Translations under genes and position numbers: made by a program
Part shown: one piece after another, positions 2,221-4,759 of the stretch
Position numbering within the stretch: the first letter of the stretch is position 1
Layout of the letters: each line of letters opens with the position of its first letter
NCBI RefSeq assembly: GCF_000177215.2
Contig: NZ_CM001368.1
Coordinates: 3,992,125-4,056,124, forward strand
Length of the DNA: 64,000 nt
DNA from: Solidesulfovibrio carbinoliphilus subsp. oakridgensis
GTDB taxonomy: Bacteria; Desulfobacterota; Desulfovibrionia; Desulfovibrionales; Desulfovibrionaceae
Direction: 5' to 3'
The notes under the pieces: generated by a model
Told to the model about the DNA's origin: nothing
Database searches by the model: none
What the model saw: only the letters and a program-made list of their open reading frames with translations

Positions 2221-2481
2221 CTAGTCCACCTCGAACGCGGCCTTGAACTTGATCCTGACCCCGGCCGGGATCGTGAGCGGCTCCCCGGTTCTGGGGTTGC
2301 GGCCCTGGCGTTCCTTGGTGGCCACCGGCGTGAACGTGCCGAGGCACGGGAATTTGACGGACTCACCGGCCCGCATGGTGGCCTCGACCATCTGCCCGGC
2401 CAGGGCGAGACAGTTTTTCGCGGCGTCCTGGGTCATGCCGGATTCCGTGGCAAAGCGTTTGATAAATTCGGTCTGGGTCAT
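2221..2481 (-). CDS. HU family DNA-bending protein
   Basis: An 86-residue protein of typical HU/IHF length. It has the helical N-terminus (MTQTEFIKRFATESG), the VKFPCLGTFTP turn, and the GRNPRTGEPLTIPA beta-arm that wraps DNA, followed by VRIKFKA. HU-like proteins bend DNA and help phage replication, recombination and packaging. The phage copy sits between the DUF4258 gene and the nuclease gene. The Cys in the GTF turn region is unusual but not diagnostic. Confidence 0.92.
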   Translation of the reverse strand: MTQTEFIKRFATESGMTQDAAKNCLALAGQMVEATMRAGESVKFPCLGTFTPVATKERQGRNPRTGEPLTIPAGVRIKFKAAFEVD

Positions 2482-2499
2482 GGTCTTCCTCCTGCCGGC

Positions 2500-2730
2500 T
2501 CACGCCGGGCTAATGTTGTTTTCGTCGTGCCTGTCCGTCACGTCGTAAGCAGTGACCACCGTCAAAGACTGCGTGTTGACGACAAAGCAGAACCCGTTCC
2601 AGGCGTAACGCACCGTCTTGTGGTCCATGTGCGTTTTCTTGCCACACACCACGGCGATTTCGGCCAAATGCAACGAGATATTACGCTGGTTCATGCGCTT
2701 AATCGCGTGGTCGGTGTAGCGGAGGGACAT
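2500..2730 (-). CDS. DUF4258-like phage protein
   Basis: A 76-residue protein from ATG 2730 that matches the DUF4258 pattern: YTDHAIKRMNQRNIS near the start, a central basic segment, and CFVVNTQSLTVVTAY near the end. The fold is RelE/toxin-like in size, and some DUF4258 proteins occur in toxin-antitoxin-like loci, but no function is assigned. Its start overlaps the preceding stop by one base (TAATG), so translation is coupled. Confidence 0.7.
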   Translation of the reverse strand: MSLRYTDHAIKRMNQRNISLHLAEIAVVCGKKTHMDHKTVRYAWNGFCFVVNTQSLTVVTAYDVTDRHDENNISPA

Positions 2731-3011
2731 TACGCCACCAGTCCGCCGGCTTTTATTGCCTCGCAAACCTCGTCCCTGGCATCCACGACGGCCACGATGA
2801 GGTCGCGCATCGTCTCCACGTTCTCTCGGTCAGCCCGCAGGTTGTCGCCCATCATGCGTTCCAGGACAGCCTTGGCCGCACCTTCCAGCGTGGCGAAATA
2901 GGCGTGATCCGACTCGTATTCTTCGCCGGCCTTCTTCGAGACACGCACACGGGAAATTTGATACCCCGGGTCTGTGTAGTCGATCCTGTGGTTTCCGATC
3001 CTGACTGGCAT
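2730..3011 (-). CDS. Phage hypothetical protein
   Basis: A 93-residue protein with a beta-rich N-terminal half (YQISRVRVSKK) and a helical acidic C-terminal half. No family recognised. Its stop overlaps the start of the DUF4258-like gene by one base. About 100 bp separate it from ssb upstream. Confidence 0.6.
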   Translation of the reverse strand: MPVRIGNHRIDYTDPGYQISRVRVSKKAGEEYESDHAYFATLEGAAKAVLERMMGDNLRADRENVETMRDLIVAVVDARDEVCEAIKAGGLVA

Positions 3012-3112
3012 GGCTCTAATTCCTCTCAGGAGGCTTGTGGCTGGACGTTTGCGGGGTCACCCTATGTCCAGGCCGTTTTTTGTGGAAAAGCGAAGCAGCG
3101 GCCGCTACAGGG

Positions 3113-3577
3113 CTAAAACGGCACGTCCGACATTTCGCCCCCCGGCATCGCGTCCATGCCGCTGGCCTCGCTCGGGAATCCCTGCCGCCCCGCGCCCTGA
3201 TTCCCCCTGGCCGGCTGGCGGTCCTGGGGCTGGTCGTCCTTGTCCGGCCAGTCGATGGGCGTCACGCCCATGCCCGGAGAGTTGACCAGGACCTCCGTCT
3301 GGTAGTGCTTCTGGCCGTCTTTCTCCCAGGTGCGCGTGGCCAGTTTCCCCGCGACGTAGATACGAGTCCCTTTACGCAGCCACTTTTCGCAAAATTCGGC
3401 CTGCTTATCGAAAGCCTTGACCCGCACCCACTCGCATTTTTCGACCTTGTTCCCCTCGCGGTCCTTGTACGATTCGTCCACAGCAACGCTGATCTCCATG
3501 ACCGGCGTGCCGCTTTGCAAGTAGGTCATCTTGAGACTACCAATACGTCCTATACACTCATAACGGTTTAAAGACAC
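3113..3577 (-). CDS. ssb: Single-stranded DNA-binding protein (rebuilt 5' end)
   Basis: A 154-residue SSB: an OB-fold over residues 1-105 with the usual NRYECIGRIG opening, W in the RVKAFDKQAEF region and the GTRIYVAGKL strand, then a low-complexity linker and the acidic tip DVPF that recruits partner proteins. I take the start as GTG 3577: it follows a strong GGAGGG ribosome site, located in the last codons of the HNH gene, at good spacing. The first dozen codons are AT-rich and differ synonymously from an upstream remnant that encodes the same residues. This shows that the present 5' end arrived with the inserted endonuclease gene. Confidence 0.93.
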   Translation of the reverse strand: MSLNRYECIGRIGSLKMTYLQSGTPVMEISVAVDESYKDREGNKVEKCEWVRVKAFDKQAEFCEKWLRKGTRIYVAGKLATRTWEKDGQKHYQTEVLVNSPGMGVTPIDWPDKDDQPQDRQPARGNQGAGRQGFPSEASGMDAMPGGEMSDVPF

Positions 3578-3578
3578 C

Positions 3579-4172
3579 TTAGATTTCCCTCCATATTTCA
3601 TTGTTTATTATTTTATAAATATATCCAATTCCAATATTAAAAATGCTAGATATCTCCACGCAAGACAATCCACTCTCCCTGGACTTCCTTATTGCTCTGG
3701 CTATATCAATGTTTAATCTTAGTGATTTTTTATTCCTAGCATTTACCGTTGGACTTACCCACCTGCAATTAAATGGCGAATAGTTCCCATCGCCGTCTAT
3801 TCTGTCAAGCTGTAATCCCTCGTTATAACCGCTCGACATTGCCCATTTCTTAAAGACATCGAAGTCATGCCATTCCGGGCACACCGTTACTCCTCTCCCT
3901 CCATATCTTGGCCAGCTTTTGTGAGATTTATTGAGACATCGTGCTTTCATTGATCTCCAAACGGCATACACCCTCGTGTCGCTATCGCCATGCTTGGTAT
4001 GGGCAGAAGATATAAATTCACCCCTCTTGCAGCCGCATGATAATTGTCTTTTGCCTGTAGATATATCTGTCTCGACTACATTTTTGCAAAAATCACACTG
4101 GAAAAGGCCATAATAAATCCACCTTTTCCCAGAAGATGTTTTTTTAGAACGCGTACGCTTGATAAGTTTCAT
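3579..4172 (-). CDS. HNH homing endonuclease inserted in ssb
   Basis: A 197-residue protein. Residues 25-50 hold four Cys in CDFCK and SCGCK, a likely zinc site. Residues 65-150 match the phage HNH family: VYAVWRSMKARC, YGGRGVTVCPEWHDF, LQLDRIDGDGNYSPFNCRWV, and N near ARNKK. A C-terminal helix-turn-helix (residues 155-195) would read the target. It lies between a 15-codon ssb remnant and a complete recoded ssb. It starts four bases after the remnant's stop and ends one base before the new ssb start. The DNA is strikingly AT-rich beside its neighbours, a sign of recent transfer. HNH chemistry is family knowledge; ssb as homing target is inferred. Confidence 0.88.
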   Translation of the reverse strand: MKLIKRTRSKKTSSGKRWIYYGLFQCDFCKNVVETDISTGKRQLSCGCKRGEFISSAHTKHGDSDTRVYAVWRSMKARCLNKSHKSWPRYGGRGVTVCPEWHDFDVFKKWAMSSGYNEGLQLDRIDGDGNYSPFNCRWVSPTVNARNKKSLRLNIDIARAIRKSRESGLSCVEISSIFNIGIGYIYKIINNEIWREI

Positions 4173-4175
4173 TTT

Positions 4176-4223
4176 TTATCTTCCCACTCGGCCGATGCAC
4201 TCGTAGCGATTCAGGTCTGCCAT
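4176..4223 (-). pseudogene. Remnant of the original ssb 5' end (15 codons)
   Basis: ATG at 4223 follows a GGGAGGGGAG ribosome site and encodes MADLNRYECIGRVGR then TAA. This equals the N-terminus of SSB in the host's own GC-rich codons. It is cut off where the HNH gene begins. Its last codons (GTGGGAAGA) also form the ribosome site of the HNH gene, so the old ssb initiation signals now drive the endonuclease. Confidence 0.85.
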
Positions 4224-4412
4224 CTATCTCCCCTCCCGCCACCAGCGGCGGCATCGTTCGGTCCATTTGCATTCCGCCACCTGTGCCAGTGGCTTGGCCT
4301 TACCCGCCTTCCCGTCCCAGTAGACCGACCCATGGCACAGGCCACCTGTGGCGCAAGGGATGGTGGGGACTTTGTCGCAAGGCTTGGTCACTGGAGCCTC
4401 TTGCCCCGACAC
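4224..4412 (-). CDS. Small Cys-containing phage protein
   Basis: A 62-residue protein with four spread Cys (PCDK, IPCA, LCHG, ECKW, ERC region) and a basic end (CRRWWREGR). No family recognised; a metal site is possible. Its stop touches the start of the ssb remnant, and it overlaps the upstream gene by 25 bp, as expected in a compact phage operon. Confidence 0.55.
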   Translation of the reverse strand: MSGQEAPVTKPCDKVPTIPCATGGLCHGSVYWDGKAGKAKPLAQVAECKWTERCRRWWREGR

Positions 4413-4759
4413 AGAGCGTCAAGGATGCGCCGAGCCCCAGCGATGTTTCTTTCCGCCTGTTCGTCCTCGGGAGTATCCCACGCAGGCAGCGCGACCATTT
4501 CATGGCAAGGCGTGGCTTCGGCCAAAACCTTATCCGCCGCCATCAAATCGGCCGTAGTCGGCAGAAAGCTGGAAAGCTTGCGATGCTTGCGGCAGGCCAG
4601 GGCAAACCGTTCCGACGTCCACCGCTCCTCCACGAGATCGTCATGCAGAGCAGCGCTAAGCACGGCCAGTTCCTCCCGTGACTTCTGGCAGGAGTTCGCC
4701 AGCCGCAGGTTGAAAAACTGCATCGCCTGCCACACGTCTTGCTTCGTCAACGCTTCCAT
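4388..4759 (-). CDS. Phage protein, possibly replication related
   Basis: A 123-residue helical protein (QDVWQAMQFFNLRLANS, then ERFALACRKHRKLSSFLPTTADLM). The second segment resembles the small replication-associated proteins that follow phage initiator genes, but I do not recognise the family. The start at 4759 has a GGGGGCGGG purine run upstream. It overlaps the 3' end of the replication gene by 104 bp in another frame, which is long; a start at 4723 would shorten the overlap. Confidence 0.6.
   Translation of the reverse strand: MEALTKQDVWQAMQFFNLRLANSCQKSREELAVLSAALHDDLVEERWTSERFALACRKHRKLSSFLPTTADLMAADKVLAEATPCHEMVALPAWDTPEDEQAERNIAGARRILDALCRGKRLQ

Follow-up and report, generated by a model that had tools for sequence, protein, structure and literature searches.

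A phage ssb gene in the window (the whole 64,000-nucleotide stretch analysed here) is a chimera, with a foreign first 13 codons joined to a native body and with the breakpoint at the position where an HNH endonuclease gene has been inserted. The native start of the gene persists as a stump ahead of the HNH gene and a complete ssb follows behind it, and every part of this arrangement, which the initial annotation had described, was found on the minus strand (Table 1). The window sits in a 4.2-Mb genome, and the same stretch is a 60.8-kb viral contig in IMG/VR. We estimate a probability of roughly 0.7 that a free-standing HNH homing gene, probably located immediately ahead of ssb in its donor, entered the resident ssb at or near its cleavage site at codons 13-14. 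As judged from sequence, the arrangement is real and well defined, and on the present sample it appears to be recurrent in phages at low frequency.

Table 1. Features of the interrupted ssb locus in the window; L033 is an uninterrupted relative.
Feature	Positions	Strand	Basis
Native ssb ribosome-binding site GGGAGGGG	4230..4237	-	Sequence; putative role
Remnant of native ssb 5' end, 15 codons plus stop, GC-rich	4176..4223	-	Translation; 82% nucleotide identity to L033 start
HNH endonuclease gene, 197 aa, I-HmuI-like nuclease core	3579..4172	-	phrog_374, E=4.3e-50
New ssb ribosome-binding site GGAGGG, within HNH 3' end	3587..3592	-	Sequence; putative role
Replacement ssb 5' end, GTG plus 12 codons, AT-rich	3539..3577	-	GC3 0.18 (11 compared codons); 67% nucleotide identity to L033
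Native ssb body, GC-rich	3113..3538	-	Codons 14-100 at 83% nucleotide identity to L033

The stump is an open reading frame that runs from an ATG at 4223 to a stop at 4176 and encodes MADLNRYECIGRVGR. This stop lies 3 nt ahead of the HNH start, placing the HNH gene within 4 nt of the stump, and it is therefore plausible that HNH translation is coupled to the remnant frame. The native ssb ribosome site would now front the 15-codon frame and, by coupling, the HNH gene, so that the suggested use of the old ssb start region to translate the HNH gene stands as plausible. The ssb behind it is intact and encodes an ordinary SSB product (Pfam SSB 3.8e-26). Its start is likely the GTG at 3577, behind the GGAGGG at 3592-3587, from which it reads VSLNRYECIGRIG and onward to 3113; an alternative in-frame ATG further upstream at 3601 has no evident ribosome site. 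GC content at third positions is 0.73 in the remnant, 0.18 in the new start, 0.82 in the next 11 codons and 0.40 in the HNH gene, in agreement with the earlier description of a GC-rich remnant and an AT-rich insert. A second ssb, at 50% identity, lies elsewhere in the genome, beyond the window (G000:C1:3679558-3680031).

The chimeric nature of ssb is seen by comparison with L033, an IMG/VR contig that carries an uninterrupted ssb 81% identical to that of the window and is the only close relative with an empty site. Such a relative had been predicted by the initial annotation, and L033 reads LNRYECIGRIG-SLK across the junction. At shared residues, its codons are identical to those of the stump in 6 of 10 cases and to those of the ssb body (codons 14-100) in 49 of 79, compared with 2 of 11 for the replacement start (Fisher P=0.008, start versus body). 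Stump and body are thus nearer to L033 than the new start is, and ssb is accordingly a chimera that switches from foreign to native sequence where the HNH gene went in. Identity to L033 in 36-nt windows climbs from 0.69 to at least 0.81 around codon 14-15, and GC3 jumps from 0.18 to 0.82 at the junction, the lowest 11-codon stretch of the native body being not below 0.45; the replacement start therefore ends where the stump ends. The comparison also supports the proposal that a foreign 5' end came with the HNH gene and completed ssb. Were the stump instead a decayed second ssb of a tandem pair that happens to precede the HNH gene, a reading whose sole support is that both pieces are ssb starts, it would not be expected to stop at the foreign-to-native switch of the downstream gene without the rest of ssb; with the chimera test also opposed to it, we regard this history as barely credible.

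The HNH protein matches phrog_374, an HNH nuclease of a phage homing family. Its residues 112-165 match the nuclease core of PDB 1u3e (E=0.00092 for the protein alone, 0.00035 as a profile of 30 relatives), which we take to be I-HmuI, the HNH homing endonuclease of a Bacillus phage intron. A similarity to HTH_23 at residues 158-190 is weak and below the cut-off (E=0.088). I-HmuI, the nearest nuclease, is a nicking enzyme, so by analogy the break here may start as a nick. The likeness lies in the nuclease core and not in the genetic setting: I-HmuI is intron-encoded, whereas an Rfam search of window positions 2900-4500 gave no match up to E=5, hence no known group I intron, and the downstream ssb is complete by itself. 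The gene is not an intein either, as the HNH frame has its own start and stop. It appears to be a free-standing phage homing-type gene in an unusual insertion state, with cleavage as a predicted activity. Relatives at E<=0.001 are found in 10 of 348 genomes of the order.

We propose that the HNH enzyme would cut the native ssb near codons 13-14, that the right end of the break would copy the donor's ssb start and HNH gene by homology, and that the left end would be joined at the break, with the native 5' end staying as the stump. About a third of the bases of the foreign start differ, by which it would escape cutting. The new start probably removes the cut site and works as an immunity device, its predicted resistance following from a 36% nucleotide difference from the stump. 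The divergence between stump and new start would also discourage recombination between them, and with it loss of the HNH gene. Because the insert would be bordered by the stump on one side and the native body on the other, both perfectly homologous to an empty ssb, the HNH gene and replacement start would home as a unit in later crosses. The breakpoint at the insertion point, the retained stump and the intact HNH gene all favour this account. Against it, no second phage with the HNH-ssb unit was found: among 191 ssb loci, none has an HNH gene of this family at ssb apart from the phage's own two records, and in L079 and L080, the only others to carry one, it is over 1 kb downstream. The unit was seen in one phage only, its mobility is a prediction, and L033 is the one close relative with an empty site.

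The stump and the new start are identical at 10 of 11 residues, and 9 of these 10 are encoded by different codons. The initial annotation had counted ten differing codons among eleven; the count holds, with nine at identical residues and the tenth at a V/I position. With both copies drawn from the phage's own codon usage, a mean of 5.8 codons differed (P=0.025), and independent draws from local phage and HNH-gene codon usage gave a mean of 7.0 (P(>=9)=0.13). The observed difference is unremarkable, being about as expected from a diverged AT-rich homologue. Since the mixed phage and HNH-gene model fits an insert from an AT-rich genome, selection for maximal difference is unnecessary. The earlier proposal of a synonymous start is thus borne out where it concerns restoration of the SSB protein, as seen against L033, but finds no backing at P=0.13 where it has the codon changes selected to remove the cut site. 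Recoding of the element's copy of the target start in place, base by base, to escape cleavage would suit the 9 of 10 different codons, the P of 0.025 under phage usage and the strong differences at three loci described below, L321 (10 of 11), L327 (8 of 12) and L534 (6 of 9, with all 9 residues identical). We consider it highly improbable, given the P of 0.13 against simple AT-rich usage, the weak differences in L454 and L360 and the fact that the proteins differ too, the new start having S where the remnant has AD and I where it has V.

The new start is most simply explained as the start of a diverged donor's ssb, because another locus, L485, has a natural ssb start MSLNRYECIG and no HNH gene was found near it in an 11 kb stretch. 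L485 was one of 11 stretches recovered by a search with the start pattern, the others being the phage's own record (2), the L033 contig (1) and short or unrelated frames (7). An HNH-free relative with the AT-rich start had been named beforehand as evidence that would speak against cut-site removal. L485 provides the HNH-free relative but not the AT-rich codons, and for that reason it refutes the idea only weakly. Immunity may be a by-product of the donor's divergence.

We surveyed 163 non-redundant HNH loci, 139 of them testable, by matching peptides that begin ahead of the HNH gene against the start of the next gene downstream. A null of mismatched flanks (4000 draws) had a 99.9th percentile of 35 and a maximum of 42. 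The window, scored as L112, reached 60, and chance similarity of its flanks was rejected on this basis; in a looser, non-anchored test the highest null score over 3000 draws was 59. Five of the 139 loci reached 35, namely L206 (105), L327 (68), the window, L321 (49) and L360 (35). Of 400 control genes, taken from a pool of 803 in ssb loci, 3 reached the same score (Fisher P=0.03), and at 45 or above there were 4 HNH loci versus 1 control (P=0.017; top control 53). The excess of HNH loci over controls is significant but modest. Since 3 of the 400 controls also reach 35, L360, the weakest case, rests on gene identity and geometry rather than on its score. L305 (34) and L316 (30) were not counted as cases, nor was L258, a possible start swap (1306-1340 and 1821) in which an eight-codon stump, MNNKTFRG, precedes the HNH gene and a longer gene beginning MNGSLFRGYV lies behind, the match of the stump to MNGSLFRG being below the limit. 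Other scoring loci were rejected on inspection: the L338 score (41) comes from a short frame in which a terminator-like hairpin is repeated, and in L598 (36) and L519 (33) the match is inside the HNH gene itself. The match in L313 (54) lies far from the HNH ends in apparent GC-rich antisense frames and was not among the best 20 in a tight-geometry test. In a survey of HNH_3 loci (30 listed, 29 scored, L458 being too short), L463 (65) has repeated HNH domains in one ORF and L455 (60) has the look of non-coding, GC-rich frames; neither was counted.

The four other loci show the same geometry at different targets. L206, from another genus of the same family, has a 39-codon stump (MTNEEIFEAML...GNIGEEG), an HNH gene and then a complete gene with a 57%-identical start, whose product is nucleotide pyrophosphohydrolase-like, below Pfam cut-offs. 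Uninterrupted homologues of this target occur in other genomes of the order (frames such as L435 and L436), 18 of 347 genomes having a match, its own genome G142 among them. A DNA search for the empty site in 79 genomes of one genus matched 3, with only G142 giving a long match and no related prophage, and the target protein had no match in the phage collection. In L327, the stump MIQLRYYQQEALDALYRF is followed by a DEAD-type helicase that starts MELRYYQKEALDALYNY, with 8 of 12 shared residues recoded. L321, whose target is a short transmembrane protein, has two hydrophobic starts of similar pattern with 10 of 11 shared residues recoded.

In L360, the stump VIYGSVCSGIEAAS continues in frame into the HNH gene, and the cytosine (C5) methyltransferase behind starts MRFLSLFSGIEAAS; 3 of 8 codons at shared residues differ. 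HNH relatives of L360 occur in L544/L545 (78%) and L546/L547 (75%); in these the HNH gene overlaps the beginning of an intact methyltransferase gene, and about 100 bases upstream show no stump. A free-standing homing gene ordinarily lies beside its target in this way, and the arrangement likely represents the donor state. In L360 and L543, a stump from another type of methyltransferase precedes the HNH-methyltransferase unit, and methyltransferase genes were all that a DNA search with the L543 unit recovered. Over at least 210 residues, the L360 methyltransferase is similar to its L544 counterpart (0.73-0.90 per 30 residues), so that the donor tract there runs at least that far into the target, whereas in the window it stops at the junction.

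Both the shared geometry at four other targets and the stump-free relatives of the methyltransferase case argue for entry by homing. The donor tract that passes the junction in L360 and the small codon differences in L454, L360 and L273 count against it. Ordinary phage mosaicism, in which illegitimate recombination joined an AT-rich segment carrying the HNH gene and an ssb start within ssb and no nuclease cut took place, would also fit the codon divergence, which needs no selection (P=0.13), and in the available part of one account, phage nuclease genes are reported to lie at the borders of genetic exchange (PMC10448857). We think this unlikely, since the order of stump, HNH gene and foreign end recurs in different targets and at either target end, and the foreign tract of the window ends where the stump ends.

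A candidate mirror form of the swap, at the 3' ends of genes, was also seen. An end-anchored test was possible for 153 of 181 loci (null 99.9th percentile 31, maximum 34), and the top scores were L273 (54), L454 (48), L257 (34), L319 (34) and L284 (33), of which L257 and L319 were not counted as cases. L273 has an endolysin-like protein with the ending SGYICLNYCVKSK, and its downstream HNH ORF terminates in SGWICLNYCKKI; 3 of 9 shared-residue codons differ. The upstream gene of L454 ends LDGQNWTQFPE and its HNH ORF ends GKHKAGRVPDGQEWNEFPEV, which resembles the tail seen in long homologues (L497, for example), with 1 of 7 shared-residue codons different, and L284 has the stump FSNILKI with 3 of 7 codons different. 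L534 (64), among 29 further loci, has an upstream protein and an HNH ORF that both end LTHYGYKEI, all 9 residues being identical and 6 of 9 codons different. On the assumption that the upstream copy is the newcomer, for which L454 alone has comparative support, the displaced native end would be the tail of the HNH frame in L273, L454 and L534. Together with the start swaps, this gives four further start-swap and four end-swap candidates beside related HNH genes. The statement of the initial annotation that no such case was known in phage ssb therefore needs qualifying for phages, with eight more candidate replacements of a 5' or 3' end.

To our knowledge, a homing gene inside an essential gene is generally assumed to depend on a self-splicing intron or an intein, and homing genes otherwise to stay intergenic. 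T4 mobA and gene 60 have reportedly been the subject of bypass work, in PNAS in 2011. In the window, an HNH gene lies within a phage DNA-replication gene, which would survive the insertion because a foreign start came along. As described in the available portion of the source, the WHO elements found in Torulaspora and Lachancea yeasts exchange the 3' end of FBA1 at each integration and leave the old end as a fragment, and the FBA1 allele of a WHO-bearing strain resists cleavage (PMC7282813). The window likewise has a free-standing endonuclease gene in its target, a diverged linked end and the native end left as a fragment. These are found at the 5' end of ssb with the fragment upstream, whereas WHO elements have the 3' end of FBA1 with the fragment downstream, and the enzyme is an HNH nuclease in phage rather than an HO-like LAGLIDADG protein in the yeast nucleus. 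Fungal mitochondrial mORFs (Glomus atp6, atp9, cox2 and nad3; Allomyces atp6) similarly pair an endonuclease ORF with a diverged partial copy of the target, the hybrid gene being used and the native piece left over, according to the accessible part of their description (PMC3630166). The foreign ends of Glomus mORFs are largely synonymous with their native counterparts in the same source; unlike in our case, they are carboxy-terminal, the enzymes are of LAGLIDADG or GIY-YIG type and the setting is mitochondrial.

Free-standing T4 endonucleases (seg, mob) lie beside or inside their targets and spread by co-conversion (PMC2988022). In the portions available, they resemble the window in being near the target, in a recipient that is resistant as donor sequence replaces the cut site, and in an overlap with the upstream ORF that suggests coupled translation; they differ in lying between genes or in splitting the target into two used polypeptides, as mobE does in nrdA of Aeh1 and mobA in T4 topoisomerase (PMC2988022, PMC12724721). 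A leftover native end with a replacement end is not described in those portions of the two accounts, and the accessible parts of the open-access literature searched yielded no phage gene in which the 5' end is replaced and the old one kept as a stump. By analogy, the window element would work like WHO elements and mORFs in mirrored form, but it belongs to neither family, since its enzyme type, the target end that is exchanged and its host are all different.

Tentatively, and with somewhat more doubt than conviction, we suggest that phages carry recurrent end-replacing homing elements of two mirror forms, in which an HNH gene is linked to a diverged 5' end upstream of its target or to a diverged 3' end downstream of it. 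Each would move as one unit, repairing the gene that it interrupts and making that target immune, while the displaced native end provides the second homology arm for the next round. Such elements would be a bacterial-virus counterpart of WHO elements with a separate origin. The likeness to WHO elements and mORFs would then be convergence. If general, this would be a simple route for nuclease genes into coding sequence, one that leaves stumps and rewrites the ends of core phage genes. The stumps would record where the enzymes cut, so that genome sequences could reveal the target sites of many HNH enzymes not yet characterised.

Several other arrangements of HNH genes were observed. In L079 and L080 (4254-4916), an HNH gene lies more than 1 kb downstream of a phage ssb. 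Three DNA polymerase A genes have an HNH ORF in another frame within the long open frame: L114 (433-3333, HNH 2387-3043), L115 (1-2544, HNH 1628-2296) and L117 (1-3333, HNH 1092-1850 and 2399-3022). By eye, these polymerase frames look like inteins (no intein Pfam match at 0.01), and if so they would be inteins with the endonuclease overprinted in a second frame. The HNH-rich frame L463 (G339 contig C45) is 355 residues long with four tandem HNH_3 matches, and one contig (G128 contig C112, L453) has five HNH_3 matches in separate frames, a possible homing-gene cluster.
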